From Thiogranum sp. (lineage in GTDB: Bacteria > Pseudomonadota > Gammaproteobacteria > DSM-19610), in assembly GCA_022340245.1 (NCBI GenBank), contig JAJDOI010000119.1:1-35640 (forward strand): a DNA stretch of 35,640 nucleotides. Direction: 5' to 3'. The position numbers and the translations under genes are program-made. Positions 7,416 through 14,499 of this stretch are shown here, piece after piece. How positions within the stretch are numbered: the first letter of the stretch is position 1; each line of letters starts with the position of its first letter. The notes below the pieces were generated by a model. That model ran no database searches. It was not told where the DNA came from and worked only from the letters and a program-made list of their open reading frames with translations.

Positions 7416-7449
7416 TAAAACAAGGGGGAGGCAAGCTCCCCCCGTTGTT
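7416..7449 (-). terminator. Terminator-like hairpin after dsrC
   Basis: On the minus strand, directly after dsrC, a GC stem (7436-7442 paired with 7424-7430, 7 bp, 5-nt loop, extended by ACAA/TTGT) is followed by TTGTTTTAT. This resembles an intrinsic terminator inside the operon. Partial read-through would give far more dsrC mRNA than dsrMKLJOPN mRNA, in keeping with the known high abundance of DsrC. Confidence 0.65.
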
Positions 7450-7464: not shown

Positions 7465-7797
7465 TCAGACGCAACCGGTCGGCTTGGGCAGACCGGCATA
7501 CTTACAGGCCTGCTTCGCAGGACCATACGGAAACAGTTCGTACAGGTACTTGCTGTTGCCCTTGTCCTTGCCCAGCTTCTTGCCGATGGCCTTGGTCAGA
7601 ACGCGCACCGCCGGTGCGATCTGGTACTCTTCGTAGTACTCGCGCAGGAAGTTGATGACTTCCCAGTGAGCGTCGGTCAGTTCGGTGCCGTCTTCCCTGG
7701 CCATGATGGTCGCTACTTCAGGCTCCCACTGATTCAGGTCGGCCAGATAGCCCTCTTCATCCACTTCCAGCGACTTACCGTTTACTTCGATAGACAT
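7465..7797 (-). CDS. dsrC: DsrC, sulfur-carrier protein
   Basis: 110 residues, ATG at 7797 after GAGGAGAG. The flexible C-terminal arm has both redox cysteines, Cys98 (QACKYAGLP) and penultimate Cys109 (PTGCV), the hallmark of true DsrC as opposed to TusE, which keeps only one. DsrC accepts sulfur from DsrEFH, delivers it as persulfide to DsrAB, and its trisulfide or disulfide form is processed by DsrK. The gene sits between dsrH and dsrM as in A. vinosum. A short stem (TTTGCA/TGCAAA) occurs in its leader. A second, cysteine-less paralogue is encoded at 13842. Confidence 0.97.
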   Translation of the reverse strand: MSIEVNGKSLEVDEEGYLADLNQWEPEVATIMAREDGTELTDAHWEVINFLREYYEEYQIAPAVRVLTKAIGKKLGKDKGNSKYLYELFPYGPAKQACKYAGLPKPTGCV

Positions 7798-8988: not shown

Positions 8989-10065
8989 TTAGAAACGGAT
9001 GTGCGTAGAAGCATTCAGGCTGGCACGGGCGCCACGCCAGTTGTCCACGTGGTACTTGGTGAACGGCAGCCCCGTCACTTCGAAGAATCGCGGCCAGCCA
9101 ATGCGCTCAACCCATTCGTTGATACGTTCCCAGTCCTTGGCGCCGGCTTTGTATTCTTTAAGAATACGCTTGACGATGGCGGTAGCCTCGGGCCAGCGTG
9201 GCGGGTTGTTCGGGATACCGGAAGCGACGAGCTTCTGGAAGGTCGGCTTGCCACGGGCGTTGGAGTGGTTGCCGCCGATCCAGACGGCGAGCTTGGTGTG
9301 TTCGGCGTCGTTGATCTGCATCGGCGGGCAGGGCGGGAAGCAGGCGCCACAGCAGATGCACTTCTTCTCGTCCACTTCCAGCGAAGGCTTGCCGTTGACC
9401 ATGGCCGGACGAATTGCGGCGACCGGGCAGCGGGCTACGACCGAGGGGCGCTCACAGACGTTGGACACCAAGTCGTGGTTGATTTTCGGGGGCTTGGTAT
9501 GCTGCACGTTGATGGCGATATCGCCCTGGCCGCCGCAGTTGATCTGGCAGCACGAGGTGGTGATATGCACGCGGTTCGGCATGTTCCACGCGGTGAACTC
9601 GCCGATCAGTTCGTCCATCATGGATTTCACAACGCCGGAAGCGTCGGTGCCGGGGATGTCGCAGTGCAGCCAGCCCTGGGTGTGGGACAGCGAGGTCACC
9701 GAGTTCTTGGTACCGCCGACTACGAAGCCGGCGTTGGTCAGCGCCTCGATCAGGGGCTGGACCTTGGCTTCATCGGTGACGATGAATTCGATGTTGGAAC
9801 GGATGGTGAAGCGGATGTAGCCGTCGGCGTACTTGTCACCGATGTCGCACAGGGTGCGCAGGGTGAATATGTCGAGAATACGCTGGGTGCCGGCCTTGAT
9901 GGTGAAGACCTGGTCGCCGCTGAAGGCCACGTGGCGCAGGACGCCGGGCTGCGGGTCATCATGGTACTTCCACTGACCGAAATTCTTGCGCATCACCGGA
10001 TGCATGTACTGGAAACCGTCGGGGCAACCCGATTCGATCGGTTCCCTCATATCTGCCATTGCCAT
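8989..10065 (-). CDS. dsrB: DsrB, beta subunit of reverse dissimilatory sulfite reductase
   Basis: 358 residues. The start chosen is ATG at 10065 (MAMADMREPIESGCPDGF), 5 nt after CAGGAGAG; an ATG 33 nt upstream lacks a site as good. Cofactor-binding cysteines are C172, C173 and C177 (SCCQINCGG), then C204 and C213, followed by a ferredoxin insertion (CICCGACFPPC) at about residues 233-243. With DsrA it forms the cytoplasmic alpha2beta2 enzyme that, in sulfur oxidisers, oxidises DsrC-bound sulfane sulfur to sulfite using siroheme-[4Fe-4S]. The length is close to A. vinosum DsrB. Confidence 0.96.
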   Translation of the reverse strand: MAMADMREPIESGCPDGFQYMHPVMRKNFGQWKYHDDPQPGVLRHVAFSGDQVFTIKAGTQRILDIFTLRTLCDIGDKYADGYIRFTIRSNIEFIVTDEAKVQPLIEALTNAGFVVGGTKNSVTSLSHTQGWLHCDIPGTDASGVVKSMMDELIGEFTAWNMPNRVHITTSCCQINCGGQGDIAINVQHTKPPKINHDLVSNVCERPSVVARCPVAAIRPAMVNGKPSLEVDEKKCICCGACFPPCPPMQINDAEHTKLAVWIGGNHSNARGKPTFQKLVASGIPNNPPRWPEATAIVKRILKEYKAGAKDWERINEWVERIGWPRFFEVTGLPFTKYHVDNWRGARASLNASTHIRF

Positions 10066-10101
10066 GTTGCTCTCCTGAATTTGAGTACTGTCTAACATGC
10101 C

Positions 10102-10158: not shown

Positions 10159-11415
10159 TTAAGCGCTGGCTTTTTCAGCCTGACGCTGGAACCACTTCTC
10201 GGCTTCCTCGTCCCAGCCGTCCATGCGGACGTAAGAGGACTGACGCGGGTTGTTGACCATGTTCGGATCAACCTCCACACCGATACCTTCAAGGAAGTTC
10301 ACCAGGCCGATACGCTCGATCATTTCACCGCAGCGTTCGTGCTCCAGACCGTTCTCAGCCCAGAAATCGATGATTTCTTCGGCCATCTCCACCAGGGACT
10401 CGTAGTCTTCTTCGGTCTCCAGCTTCTTGAACGGCACCACAACGGTGCCCATCAGGTCGCCGATCTTCAGGGTGCGCTTGCCGCCGATGAGGATGGTCAC
10501 GCCCCTGTCGTCGCCGGGGTGCAGGGCTTTCGGCATGACGTTCAGACAGTGCATGCAGCGTACGCAGTTGCGGTTGTCAACAGCCAGCGTGTCGTCGTCG
10601 TTCAGGCTCAGGGCCTGGGTGGGGCAACGGGTAATGACGTTATCGATAATGTACTGACGGCCCTTCTTGGCGACATAGCCCTTGACTTCTTCCTGGTCGA
10701 CTTTCATGTCGTCGCGCCAGGTACCGATGACGGCGAAGTCGGAACGCTCGATGGAGTTCTGGCAGTCGTTCGGGCAACCGGAGACCTTGAACTTGAACTT
10801 GTAGGGCAGGGCCGGACGGTGCACGTCGTCGGTGAAGTTGTTCACCAGGTGACGGTGAATGCCGTGCTCGTTGGCGCAGGACATTTCACAGCGGGCGGCA
10901 CCGACGCAGGACATGGCGGTACGCACGCAGGGACCGGCACCACCGAGGTCCCAGCCGTACTCGTTGATTTCGTCGAAGAAATGCTGGGTGTTCTCGGTAG
11001 TGGTACCGATAAACATGATATTACCGGTCTGACCGTGGAAGGTCTGAAGGCCGGAACCCCATTTTTCCCAGCTGTCGCCGAGCTTGCGCAGCATGTCGGT
11101 GGTGTAGTAGTTGCCCGGGGTGGGCTGAACGCGCAGGGTGTGGAACTCGCGGGATTCGGGGAAGGCATCGCCAACTTCCGAGAAGCGCGGAATGATGCCA
11201 CCGCCGTAACCGAACACGGAAACCGTGCCGCCTTTCCAGTAACCCTTGCGGGTTTCGTAGGAGTGCTCGAGCTGACCGAGCAGGGAGTTGGTTACTTTAC
11301 GGATACGCTCATCCGGATGATCGTCTCGCAGACGCTTGATACCGGAAATAAAACTCGGCCAGGGGCCGTTTTCCAGTTCGTCGAGCATAGGCGTTGGGTG
11401 GTGCTTGTCAGCCAT
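10159..11415 (-). CDS. dsrA: DsrA, alpha subunit of reverse dissimilatory sulfite reductase
   Basis: 418 residues, ATG at 11415 preceded by GGAAGGAGA. The siroheme-[4Fe-4S] ligand pattern is intact: C170-x5-C176 (CVGAARC) and C214-x3-C218 (CPNDC). A C-terminal ferredoxin insertion (CPTQAL, CVRCMHC) carries a further cluster. It is the first gene of the operon and forms the catalytic alpha2beta2 complex with DsrB. Companion dsrEFH and dsrL show that it runs in the oxidative direction, producing sulfite from DsrC-bound sulfur. The length agrees with A. vinosum DsrA (about 417). Confidence 0.97.
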   Translation of the reverse strand: MADKHHPTPMLDELENGPWPSFISGIKRLRDDHPDERIRKVTNSLLGQLEHSYETRKGYWKGGTVSVFGYGGGIIPRFSEVGDAFPESREFHTLRVQPTPGNYYTTDMLRKLGDSWEKWGSGLQTFHGQTGNIMFIGTTTENTQHFFDEINEYGWDLGGAGPCVRTAMSCVGAARCEMSCANEHGIHRHLVNNFTDDVHRPALPYKFKFKVSGCPNDCQNSIERSDFAVIGTWRDDMKVDQEEVKGYVAKKGRQYIIDNVITRCPTQALSLNDDDTLAVDNRNCVRCMHCLNVMPKALHPGDDRGVTILIGGKRTLKIGDLMGTVVVPFKKLETEEDYESLVEMAEEIIDFWAENGLEHERCGEMIERIGLVNFLEGIGVEVDPNMVNNPRQSSYVRMDGWDEEAEKWFQRQAEKASA

Positions 11416-11848
11416 GGCCGTCTCCTTCCAGAGTGTTGGGTGGCGGTTACTGCGTACGCTCAGAGCCGCCGTTACGTAACGTCAAAATTCGGTATTCGGT
11501 ACTTCTCTGTGTTGAGCCGAAGTTCCGGTATCGGTACTCGCACCACCGATACCGGGAACCCCCTCAATCACGCGAGTAGAAGTCTAGGAGCCTGAAGCGG
11601 GCGCGAGAATCCTACCCTTGGGGTGTACGCCTACGGCAACACTATCCCATTGGAGATAGGGGATAAATGGGCCGATCGCGGCCCGGGAGTATATGCTCCG
11701 GACGGGGGAAATGCCATGCCCCAAGAATGTACTAATATTATCAGAAGCTTATGCATCAGCCGGGTTGCCGAAAGCGACTAAACACCGGCCTTCCACAGAT
11801 AAACCTATAGAAAATAGCGGCTTTGCATGAAGTCTGTGCGACTAAATC
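11416..11848. promoter_or_regulatory. Divergent control region between dsrA and the TauD-like gene
   Basis: This roughly 470-bp gap has no convincing gene. It holds a 12-bp perfect palindrome at 11470-11481 (CGTTACGTAACG), an 11-bp inverted repeat at 11525-11535/11545-11555 (CCGGTATCGGT, 9-nt spacer) and a direct repeat sharing CGGTAT(T)CGGTACT at 11490-11503 and 11526-11538. All lie within 55-140 bp of the dsrA start, where a regulator controlling dsr expression would bind. I could not assign a convincing sigma-70 promoter for dsrA. The rest (11600-11820) has only short imperfect dyads. The palindromes are seen directly; the operator role is inferred. Confidence 0.6.
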
Positions 11849-11857: not shown

Positions 11858-11887
11858 ACGCATTTGGCTGATAGGGCTTTCATTGGA

Positions 11888-12829
11888 ATGAGCGCCATGA
11901 CGGCACCGTTATCACAATCTTTCAAACAGGCCGGCCGCGCCGACCACTTCGATCTCGCGAACGAGGGCGCATACCACGCCTGGCGGGTGAGGAAACTGGC
12001 TGACTATCCCATGCGGGCAGGTGGTCTGCTGGTGCCCGTCGCTGACGGCTTCCGGCTGACGCGCGCGGAACGGCTGGCGGTTCTGCGCACTGTCGGCAAG
12101 ACGAATATTGCGATTTACCAGCTGTCGGGGCCCGCTGCCGCTGACAAGCACATGGTTCGGGAACTGGCGCGGCAGTTCGGCCTGCAACACCTGGACAACA
12201 ATCTTTGCGCGGATGAAGACGGTATCACCTCCCTGCAGGTGGTCGGCAAACGCCGGGTGGGAGAATACATTCCCTACACCAGCAAACGTCTCAACTGGCA
12301 CACGGATGGCTACTACAACAGTCCCGACCGGCAGATCCGGGGCGTCATCCTCCACTGTGTCCGGCCGGCCGCCAGCGGCGGGGAAAACGCGTTTATGGAT
12401 CACGAAATTGCCTATATTCAGCTGCGCGACGAAAATCCGGACTATATTCGGGCGCTCACGGCGCCCGACGCAATGACCATTCCCCCGAATGTGCAGAACG
12501 GCGAAGAACTGCGGGCCAGCCGGACCGGACCGGTATTCTCGGTTGACGTCGGGGGCCACCTGCACATGCGCTATTCGGCGCGCGGGCGAAATATTGTCTG
12601 GAAAAAGGATTCAACCACACAGGCGGCAGCAGAATGCCTGTTGAACTTGTTTCAACCGGATTCGCCCTATATATTTCGGCACCGGCTCGAAGCGGGGCAG
12701 GGCGTGATCAGTAACAATGCCTTGCACTGCAGGACGGAATTCGAGCATGACGCCGGCAGTGATCAGGGTCGATTGCTTTATCGCGCGCGCTATTTCGACC
12801 GCGTCCGCGACACCCATCAAAGCGGATGA
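11888..12829 (+). CDS. TauD/TfdA-family Fe(II)/2-oxoglutarate dioxygenase, dsr-linked
   Basis: About 313 residues from ATG at 11888; ATG at 11897 is also possible. The iron-binding facial triad is visible: H138 and D140 (LNWHTDGYY) and distal H280 (NNALHCRTEF), with an arginine at about 295-299 for 2-oxoglutarate. This places it in the TauD/TfdA/gamma-butyrobetaine hydroxylase superfamily. The substrate cannot be read from the sequence; TauD itself releases sulfite from taurine. It heads a plus-strand cassette divergent from dsrA, followed after 6 nt by a 64-aa gene. The linkage to dsr suggests a role in sulfur metabolism, but a protein-modifying hydroxylase is equally open. Confidence 0.85.
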   Translation: MSAMTAPLSQSFKQAGRADHFDLANEGAYHAWRVRKLADYPMRAGGLLVPVADGFRLTRAERLAVLRTVGKTNIAIYQLSGPAAADKHMVRELARQFGLQHLDNNLCADEDGITSLQVVGKRRVGEYIPYTSKRLNWHTDGYYNSPDRQIRGVILHCVRPAASGGENAFMDHEIAYIQLRDENPDYIRALTAPDAMTIPPNVQNGEELRASRTGPVFSVDVGGHLHMRYSARGRNIVWKKDSTTQAAAECLLNLFQPDSPYIFRHRLEAGQGVISNNALHCRTEFEHDAGSDQGRLLYRARYFDRVRDTHQSG

Positions 12830-12835
12830 TCGAAC

Positions 12836-13030
12836 ATGCTGTGTCTGAGCGAAATACTGTTACAACACCACGAGCTGCAAACTTTCGAAGACCTGCTTGG
12901 GGTCGTCGAGGACAAGGCCCGTGGCGGCGAACTGTTTTTCCAGATGGACGTGCGGCCGCCGTTTCCGGATACGCCGGAAAGCTGGGAGGATCGTCTTGAG
13001 GCGGCTTTCGCCGCGGCCGGCAGACGCTAG
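12836..13030 (+). CDS. Small acidic protein, unknown, in the dsr-linked cassette
   Basis: 64 residues, ATG at 12836, 6 nt after the dioxygenase stop and 13 nt before the Cas6-like gene. No strong ribosome-binding site is present, so coupling to the upstream gene is likely. The sequence (MLCLSEILLQHHELQTFEDL...) is acidic and helical with no cysteine beyond Cys3 and no recognisable motif. The tight spacing on both sides is the best evidence that it is a real gene. It could be a partner of either neighbour. Confidence 0.6.
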   Translation: MLCLSEILLQHHELQTFEDLLGVVEDKARGGELFFQMDVRPPFPDTPESWEDRLEAAFAAAGRR

Positions 13031-13043
13031 CGGGAGTGTGAAC

Positions 13044-13754
13044 ATGTTCTGGGAAGAGCAGACAGACGAAAACTCGCCCCTGGTCGTGCCCGATGACGTG
13101 GTGGACCTGGTCTACAGCATCAAGTGCAAATGCCTGCCGCTGGATCACGCCTACAGCTTTTCCGTGGCCATGCGTGCGGCACTGCCGTGGATCGATGAAG
13201 AGACACAGGCCGGTATCCATTTGATTCACGGCGCCGAGTCCGGTAACGGCTGGATGCGCCCGGAAGACGGCAGCAACGAGGTTTTACACCTGTCGCGGCG
13301 CTCACGGCTGACGCTGCGGGTGCCCAGGCACCGTATCGAGGAGGCCCACGGCCTGAGCGGACAGACGCTGGACATCGACGGCCACTCACTCAAGGTCGGC
13401 GAGGCAAAAGTGAAGCTGTTCAGCCCGCTGCCGACCCAGTTTGCGCGTTACGTGGCGCTGCCCGAGGGTGTAGATCGTGACGATGAAGCGGCGTTTATGG
13501 CGGCTGCGGCCGAACAGATCAGGGCGCTGGACATCAAGGTGCGCAAGCTGCTGTGCGGTCGCGCGCACAGCATACGCCACCCGCAGGGGGACATTTTCAC
13601 TCGCAGCGTCATGCTCGCTGACCTGGAAGCGGACGAGGCTATCGCGCTGCAGCAGCACGGTATTGGCGAGCACCGCAAGATGGGCTGCGGTCTGTTCATT
13701 CCGCACAAGGGGATCAAGGCGGTTCACGAGGCGACCGTCGGGAAGAAGGCGTAA
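13044..13754 (+). CDS. cas6: Orphan Cas6/Cmx6-like CRISPR RNA endonuclease
   Basis: 236 residues, ATG at 13044 preceded by GGGAG. It resembles the Cas6 subtype known as Cmx6 (type I-MYXAN). The segment CLPLDHAYSFSVAMRAALP (residues about 30-48) places His35 at the start of the first helix, the position of the catalytic histidine in Cas6 RNases. The C-terminal glycine-rich loop is GIGEHRKMGCG at 206-216, followed by LFIPHKGI. Cas6 enzymes cleave precursor crRNA at or near a repeat hairpin. No CRISPR array and no other cas gene are visible in the window, so this copy probably acts on another RNA. It lies between the TauD-like gene and a DsrC paralogue. I recall similar solitary copies near dsr genes in other sulfur oxidisers, which needs a database check. 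Confidence 0.75.
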   Translation: MFWEEQTDENSPLVVPDDVVDLVYSIKCKCLPLDHAYSFSVAMRAALPWIDEETQAGIHLIHGAESGNGWMRPEDGSNEVLHLSRRSRLTLRVPRHRIEEAHGLSGQTLDIDGHSLKVGEAKVKLFSPLPTQFARYVALPEGVDRDDEAAFMAAAAEQIRALDIKVRKLLCGRAHSIRHPQGDIFTRSVMLADLEADEAIALQQHGIGEHRKMGCGLFIPHKGIKAVHEATVGKKA

Positions 13755-13841: not shown

Positions 13842-14180
13842 ATGGCACTTGAAGTCGACGGCAAAACCATCGAAACCACAGAAAATGGTCACCTGGTCAA
13901 CGCGGAAGACTGGACGGAAGCAGTGGCTGAGGCGATCGCCGCAGCGGACGCGCTGGAATTGACGCAGCAACACTGGGATGTCGTCAAGTACCTGCGCGAC
14001 GAGCACTACAACAACGCCGGCAACGAGCCGAACGAGCGTACCATCCTGAAAGACATGGCCAAGAAATGGGGCAGCAAGCCGACCAGCAAGGACATGTACA
14101 ACATGTTCCCGGGCATGCCCAGCAAACAGGGCCGCAAGATCGCCGGTCTGCCGCAGAGCACCCGCAAAGGTGGATACTGA
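13842..14180 (+). CDS. rspA: Cysteine-less DsrC/TusE-family paralogue (RspA type)
   Basis: 112 residues, ATG at 13842, GGAGA upstream. The whole DsrC fold is recognisable (VDGKTIETTENGHL, LTQQHWDVVKYLRDE, MFPGMPSKQGRKIAGLP). However, the two redox cysteines are replaced: Arg98 stands where DsrC has Cys98, the tail ends TRKGGY, and there is no cysteine in the protein. It therefore cannot carry sulfur. Homologues without cysteines have been named RspA and proposed to be regulatory; the DsrC fold includes a helix-turn-helix-like element. It may compete with DsrC for DsrEFH, DsrAB or DsrK, or bind DNA. The neighbouring Cas6-like gene is a further hint of a regulatory module. Confidence 0.88.
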   Translation: MALEVDGKTIETTENGHLVNAEDWTEAVAEAIAAADALELTQQHWDVVKYLRDEHYNNAGNEPNERTILKDMAKKWGSKPTSKDMYNMFPGMPSKQGRKIAGLPQSTRKGGY

Positions 14181-14295: not shown

Positions 14296-14499
14296 ATGAG
14301 CGAGAGGCAAGAGCTGATTAAAGAAATGCTGGAAATGCAGAAGCATTTCATCTCCTACGAACACGAGCACGGCGTGACCCAGGAAGAATACTTCGCGTCC
14401 GCCGAAGGCCATGAGCTGCACAACTATCGTCAGCGTTATAACGAACTGGCGATGAAGCTGGTCGATATGGCCCATTCCGAGAAGGGCTCGCACCGCTAG
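14296..14499 (+). CDS. Small helical protein, unknown, end of the dsr-linked cassette
   Basis: 67 residues, ATG at 14296 with a strong GGAGG site 9 nt upstream. The sequence (MSERQELIKEMLEMQKHFIS...) is charged and predicted mostly helical, without cysteine or a known motif. It follows the DsrC paralogue by 115 nt and precedes a strong terminator. The strong ribosome-binding site suggests good expression. The function is unknown; a small partner of the DsrC paralogue is one possibility. Confidence 0.75.
   Translation: MSERQELIKEMLEMQKHFISYEHEHGVTQEEYFASAEGHELHNYRQRYNELAMKLVDMAHSEKGSHR

Follow-up and report, generated by a model that had tools for sequence, protein, structure and literature searches.

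Genes at the locus

The window, the whole stretch of 35,640 nucleotides from Thiogranum sp. that was analyzed, carries a dsr operon and, divergent from it, a cassette that includes a cas6 gene. On the minus strand lie dsrC (7465 to 7797; PF04358, E 7.2e-48), with both C-terminal cysteines, dsrB (8989 to 10098; PF01077 and PF03460, in a position adjoining dsrA) and dsrA (10159 to 11415; TIGR02064, 661.5 bits). On the plus strand, the first cassette gene, a conserved neighbor, encodes a TauD-family dioxygenase (11864 to 12829; PF02668, E 7.6e-22). It is followed by s64 (12836 to 13030), a gene for a strongly conserved 64-aa protein that ends 13 bases before cas6 (13044 to 13754), which has an ATG start and encodes 236 aa. 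Farther along the same strand are a DsrC paralogue (13842 to 14180; PF04358, E 2.2e-31) that ends in KGGY and has no C-terminal cysteines, and s67 (14296 to 14499), a small conserved protein that is also encoded near cas6 in other genomes and for which no Pfam or NCBIfam match was found. The earlier note, made from the sequence alone, had placed cas6 beside dsr between a dioxygenase and a DsrC paralogue; that setting was described correctly, but the 64-aa gene at 12836 to 13030, between the dioxygenase and Cas6, had been overlooked. Downstream, between 14569 and 19396 on the minus strand, are genes for two 2OG-Fe(II) oxygenase-family proteins, a DUF6866 protein and a 348-aa protein, all of which turn up next to the cassette at many loci.

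The Cas6 protein

Profiles from three libraries (Pfam, NCBIfam and PADLOC) identified the 236-aa protein as Cas6: PF09559 in a Pfam profile search at 216.6 bits (E 3.8e-64; cut-off 26.7), TIGR02807 (Cas6/Cmx6) at 133.6 bits (E 8e-39; cut-off 98.85) and the PADLOC Cas6 model at E 1.2e-61. No non-Cas6 family was listed among the matches in these libraries. A structure model built from 38 sequences, the window protein and 37 relatives of 50 to 71% identity, had a pLDDT of 87.3 and a pTM of 0.83. Its top PDB match by Foldseek was the type I-B CAST Cas6 8fcj (E 3.7e-17; TM 0.73/0.79), followed by Pyrococcus Cas6, Thermus Cse3 and others, and all of the best matches were Cas6 folds. By sequence profile, 8fcj was the sole convincing solved relative (E 8.9e-26, with the runner-up at E 0.37). 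The Cas6 identity given in the earlier note therefore stands, on profile matches far above chance and on the best PDB folds; profile search and structure prediction, two of the checks it had proposed, returned no better-scoring non-Cas6 family.

That note had also pointed to a histidine, His35, and to the C-terminal G-loop GIGEHRKMGCG (residues 206 to 216). Both are in the sequence, and both are conserved over the 118 gammaproteobacterial genomes with Cas6, counted with one protein per genome. Position 35, at the start of helix 36-46 in the model, is His in 117 of the 118 and Asn in one; the G-loop glycines G206, G208, G214 and G216 are retained in 112 to 116; and G69, W70, R86 and R92 are invariant (118/118). 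All three divergent homologues at loci L231 to L233 have H35, R86, R92 and the G-loop and lack an insert, NGWxRP, that occupies residues 68 to 73 of the window protein. The insert is also absent from 8fcj, in which Asn is aligned to H35. Because of that Asn, H35 is only a presumed catalytic base.

These residues bear on the main rival to a cutting enzyme, namely that Cas6 is a structural or regulatory RNA-binding protein that does not cut RNA. Such a role would fit the Asn of the nearest solved relative, which makes the His less than universal in the family, the conservation that extends beyond the G-loop and the His to NGWxRP, R86 and R92, and the hairpin searches described below, in which no RNA substrate was found. 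Against it, His is kept in all but one of the class genomes and in every divergent homologue without the insert, a pattern suggesting that the chemistry is under selection. We consider a noncutting Cas6 unlikely, if the most serious of the competing explanations.

Cas6 is under purifying selection: dN/dS, computable for 10 of the 12 pairs chosen, ranged from 0.05 to 0.40. No Cas6 match was found in phage records. Plasmid records yielded one, a Gloeobacter record annotated cas6, which cannot be used as a CRISPR-linked comparison because the genes listed nearby are mostly hypothetical. The Cas6 gene of a Thiomargarita nelsonii record (L127, 8021 to 8695) contains an in-frame stop, which reflects either a pseudogene or a sequencing error.

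Co-occurrence with dsrA and cas1

Among 369 gammaproteobacterial genomes, PF09559 was found in 118, Cas1 in 135 and dsrA in 119 (112 over the TIGR02064 cut-off and 7 fragments with E <1e-30). Cas6 and dsrA occurred together in 111 genomes, Cas6 alone in 7, dsrA alone in 8 and neither in 243 (Fisher p 7e-75, kinship ignored). The same pattern appeared at the level of taxonomic families, 57 of which had Cas6 and 59 dsrA: 55 had both, 2 Cas6 only and 4 dsrA only. Cas6 and Cas1 occurred together in 50 genomes, Cas6 alone in 68, Cas1 alone in 85 and neither in 166; the resulting frequencies of cas1, 50/118 with Cas6 and 85/251 without, reveal no association among the 369 genomes (Fisher p 0.13), and Cas1 against dsrA gave p 0.06, kinship again being ignored in both tests. 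In this class, then, Cas6 is nearly always present with dsrA and nearly always absent without it, independently of cas1. The earlier note had named the joint occurrence of the gene and dsrAB in CRISPR-free genomes as an observation that would favor a domesticated enzyme, and this was strongly borne out, with dsrA in 111 of the 118 Cas6 genomes and cas1 missing from 68. That most of the sampled gammaproteobacteria with dsr keep Cas6 beside it, whether or not CRISPR genes are present, suggests recruitment into sulfur metabolism and not a function in immunity.

The majority of the 15 mismatch genomes are incomplete or split into hundreds of contigs; in G318, for example, the Cas6 locus (L037) ends in a piece of dsrA at the contig end. 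Completeness does not explain the mismatch in G127 (100% complete, 40 contigs), where the locus runs into a contig end, or in G207 (99% complete), where dsrA is present and Cas6 was not found. G207 may be a real exception to the pairing.

A second sample, of 299 genomes drawn from the whole phylum and overlapping the class sample, with dsrA called at E <1e-40, contained PF09559 in only four (the Thiogranum sp. assembly, G569, G596 and G620), all of them gammaproteobacterial and all with dsrA. The gene dsrA itself was found in 52 genomes, those four and 48 from other classes. None of the 48, defined by dsrA alone, oxidative or not, had PF09559, so Cas6 is not a general requirement of dsr. Distances between Cas6 proteins and between DsrA proteins were only moderately correlated (r 0.42; 77 genomes).

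Cas6 is retained in five genomes of 1.0 to 1.1 Mb (G039, G142, G255, G287 and G351), and in seven genomes it lies apart from dsr. On the single contig that carries both, the two are 42 kb apart in G109 and 518 kb apart in G325; in G226, G032, G097, G042 and G177, Cas6 is on a different contig from dsr, among other neighbors. From reading the sequences, we take the genes next to Cas6 to be rnc- and era-like in G109, G226 and G325, rlmB-like in G032 and YeeE/YedE-like in G042.

Search for CRISPR genes and arrays

The Thiogranum sp. assembly (3.41 Mb, 238 contigs, 92.4% complete) contains one PF09559 match in total. Four cas families were looked for in it: cas1, the cas3 core, DevR and Cmr2. At that completeness the Cas1, DevR and Cmr2 models had no match, and the same three were absent from the complete genome of a member of the same genus (G080). 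The cas3 core model returned nothing over its cut-off in the 20 genomes tested, both of these included, and its sub-threshold matches resembled other helicases. Cmr2 was present in 1 of 21 genomes (G620).

Arrays were sought as exact 18-mers in three or more copies with a period of 45 to 95 in 228 sequences, some overlapping, that comprised the window and the loci L001 to L227, and none was found beside cas6. The sole match of the scan, in L111, was rejected as an ordinary tandem repeat, since it has identical “spacers.” The claim that the window holds no array or other cas gene thus agrees with an empty scan and with the four families that stayed below cut-off genome-wide, and the latter result, at 92% completeness, gave no sign of a type I-MYXAN locus elsewhere in the genome that might use this gene.

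Another explanation to weigh is that Cas6 works in trans, processing the crRNAs of arrays at other sites in the genome. The protein does pass the TIGR02807 equivalog cut-off, and the 50 Cas6 genomes with cas1 would leave room for such a role. It is hard to reconcile with the 68 that have none, with the lack of association between the two genes, with a Thiogranum genome in which cas1, DevR and Cmr2 had no match and cas3 none over cut-off, and with the absence of arrays from every sequence scanned, and we judge it very improbable.

Conservation of the cassette

Neighborhoods were surveyed at one locus per genome in all 118 Cas6 genomes, each denominator counting the loci with enough flank. Divergent dsrAB lay upstream of cas6 in 76 of 95 loci. 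Near cas6 were s64 in 95/109, the dioxygenase gene in 75/106 and, on the cas6 strand, a DsrC-family gene in 84/110; s67, likewise on the cas6 strand, was close by in 52 of 108 genomes. Between s64 and cas6, 43 of 109 loci have a 235-aa gene, absent there in the window, whose product we presume from reading it to be TPR-like. In five loci from records titled Marithrix, Parabeggiatoa, Thiotrichaceae or Thiomargarita (L106, L107, L110, L111 and L127), s64 and Cas6 were the only cassette families found together.

The frequency with which dsr adjoins cas6 would also be expected if Cas6 were a passenger, kept merely through its position beside the dsr cluster. A passenger would hardly persist in seven genomes away from dsr or in genomes of 1.0 to 1.1 Mb, and it would not account for the purifying selection on Cas6; this explanation, too, we regard as most improbable.

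The cassette is not uniform. In G042 the dioxygenase gene, s64 and the 235-aa gene stay at dsr, with Cas6 located on a different contig, and in L232 Cas6 and a KGGY paralogue are divergent from dsrA, with neither the dioxygenase nor s64 found. Outside the class, the region upstream of dsrA was read in ten genomes. Four of them (L275 to L278) have the dioxygenase gene and s64 divergent from dsrA, in three cases followed by a siroheme synthase gene, and neither Cas6 nor a KGGY paralogue in the stretch; from the other six (L279 to L284) the dioxygenase, s64, Cas6 and the paralogue are all absent upstream of dsrA. Cas6 probably joined an older dioxygenase-s64 cassette at dsr in the gammaproteobacterial line.

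The DsrC paralogue of the window is 42% identical to the DsrC of its dsr operon, and we take it to be RspA-like, of a class of Cys-less DsrC relatives; a literature search for the name RspA returned no relevant paper. Its KGGY end is characteristic of the Cas6 neighborhood: 93 of 96 DsrC-family proteins encoded within 2.2 kb of Cas6 end this way and the other 3 have the penultimate Cys, whereas among the remaining DsrC-family proteins of the same loci a GGY end occurs in 0/60 and the penultimate Cys in 57/60. In dsr loci without Cas6, 0 of 10 DsrC-family proteins have a GGY end. The penultimate Cys is described as strictly conserved among DsrC proteins, whose interaction with DsrEFH requires it (PMC3397948). 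It marks sulfur-carrying DsrC, and the neighbor at 13842, with its KGGY end, lacks it. Proteins ending in KGGY were also found in four dsr genomes without Cas6 (G542, G594, G207 and G110), which means that the paralogue is not exclusive to genomes with Cas6.

The s64 protein is modeled with three helices and had no convincing family or fold match. Its dN/dS values were 0 to 0.13, with one pair at 0.38 (10 of 12 chosen pairs). An s64 profile found the gene somewhere in 6 of 17 Cas6 genomes, these being the Thiogranum genome and 16 picked for a divergent lineage or because no s64 had been seen next to Cas6. Among dsrA genomes in which Cas6 was not found, the profile matched 1 of the 8 gammaproteobacterial ones and 4 of the 5 from other classes, and it matched 0 of 20 genomes with neither Cas6 nor dsrA. 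The idea that s64 and the KGGY paralogue are obligate partners of Cas6 is unsupported, since both occur without Cas6 and Cas6 occurs without s64, and for the same reason their proximity is no proof of a shared complex.

Search for an RNA substrate

A G+C-rich hairpin directly 3′ of dsrC, inside the dsr operon (7424 to 7443, minus strand), is a weak candidate substrate. Scored by z against mononucleotide shuffles, with z < -2 taken as significant, a hairpin at this site reached significance at 56 of the 70 Cas6 loci that could be used, at all 5 usable dsr operons of gammaproteobacteria where Cas6 was not found and at 1 of 5 dsr loci outside the class. In the window it was not significant (z -0.7), and it was missing from L200, a 1.1-Mb genome with Cas6. 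The hairpin thus tracks the class rather than Cas6. By eye, a second hairpin is often present between dsrA and dsrB. The spacers between cas6 and the paralogue, of which the first 60 of 146 were compared by eye, often fold, with no common structure seen, and in the five genomes of 1.0 to 1.1 Mb no shared hairpin was seen by eye.

A narrower form of the domesticated-Cas6 reading holds that the enzyme cuts the dsr transcript at the operon hairpins, after dsrC and between dsrA and dsrB, and so sets the amount of DsrC. The frequency of both hairpins at Cas6 loci is in keeping with this. The post-dsrC hairpin is just as regular in gammaproteobacterial operons where Cas6 was not found, falls to shuffle level in the window and is missing from L200. 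There is, moreover, another way to raise DsrC, a promoter of its own, and the genome paper of A. vinosum assigns dsrC such an additional promoter (PMC3368242). Action on dsr mRNA, which had been proposed for this protein, is therefore not borne out by the best of the hairpins, and we consider it doubtful.

Between dsrA and the TauD-family gene lies a conserved block of 80 bp (11580 to 11659) with two palindromes, ACCCTTGGGGTG at 11614 to 11625 and CTATCCCATTGGAGATAG at 11642 to 11659. Its pattern was found in 53 of 83 dsrA upstream regions, a count that is partly circular because the pattern was written after those sequences had been seen; the two controls, 0.2 occurrences expected from mononucleotide shuffles and none in 106 other windows of 500 bases, are not circular. 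The pattern was absent from the 400 bases upstream of 35 Cas6 genes without dsrA upstream in the locus, of which many are in contig-broken loci and others are relocated. The block had no Rfam match, and on neither strand did it fold better than shuffled sequence (z 0.30 and -0.40); G-U (17) and C-A (11) mispairs, counted over 38 distinct copies of the second palindrome, were similarly frequent, as in a DNA operator. On these three grounds it was rejected, for now, as a structured RNA substrate. It is probably a DNA operator common to the dsr and cassette operons, which suggests that the two are under shared control.

Interpretation

We favor, with a probability of about 0.6, the view that the gene encodes a stand-alone, domesticated Cas6 endoribonuclease that operates outside CRISPR-Cas in the service of gammaproteobacterial dsr sulfur oxidation. 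The suggestion in the earlier note of a domesticated Cas6 acting on host mRNA survives in part: Cas6 does sit beside dsr in a genome in which no CRISPR genes were found, and dsr mRNA as the target is unsupported. Cas6 enzymes cut RNA in a metal-independent manner. The predicted RNase of the cassette would recognize a short element, either a hairpin or a sequence, in an RNA of the host and cut it, again presumably without metal, and the cut would adjust sulfur oxidation genes posttranscriptionally. It may work with its cassette neighbors, the Cys-less DsrC paralogue and s64, each of which is also encoded in genomes without Cas6. A fuller version is offered tentatively, as a possibility with odds clearly below even: a CRISPR crRNA-processing enzyme would have been domesticated as a standard and long-kept part of gammaproteobacterial dsr sulfur oxidation, cutting a dedicated host RNA to control sulfur metabolism posttranscriptionally, and the Cys-less DsrC paralogue would serve it as a sensor or an adaptor.

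The gene is distributed like a standard gammaproteobacterial dsr gene. Annotation probably files it as a CRISPR component, because the protein passes the cut-off of the NCBI naming model TIGR02807, and dsr-linked cas6 genes of this kind should not be counted as CRISPR-Cas. If the protein does cut host RNA, it would represent the exaptation of Cas6 for metabolism and would show that dsr systems are also controlled at the level of RNA.

Comparison with known systems

A literature search, with preprints and most subscription journals outside its reach, returned no paper discussing a link between Cas6 and dsr. The legend of Figure 3B in a study of mangrove metagenome-assembled genomes, a map of dissimilatory sulfur genes, includes a color for cas6, and the main text of that article has cas6 once and CRISPR never (PMC10989796); the neighborhood has thus already been drawn in print, apparently without discussion. 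Passages that mention Cas6 elsewhere concern CRISPR-Cas systems (among PMC10952691, PMC7540712, PMC5944118, PMC8889020, PMC5728499, PMC8226683, PMC5109826, PMC4046663 and PMC7188992).

The closest known relatives of the window protein are the Cas6 of type I-B CAST (8fcj and 8fcu) and the Cas6/Cmx6 proteins of type I-MYXAN described by TIGR02807, with which it shares sequence family, fold and G-loop region. It differs from 8fcj in having the NGWxRP insert and a His rather than an Asn at position 35, and from both systems in being tied to dsr, in a genome where none of the four cas families tested was over cut-off. Pyrococcus Cas6 and the Cas6e/Cse3 proteins of Thermus and E. coli resemble it in fold (Foldseek) at 8 to 16% identity, the weak sequence match to E. 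coli CasE being limited to the G-loop; these enzymes serve CRISPR arrays. The neighboring protein encoded at 13842 to 14180 is a member of the TusE/DsrC family in which the C-terminal Cys is missing and the tail is KGGY.
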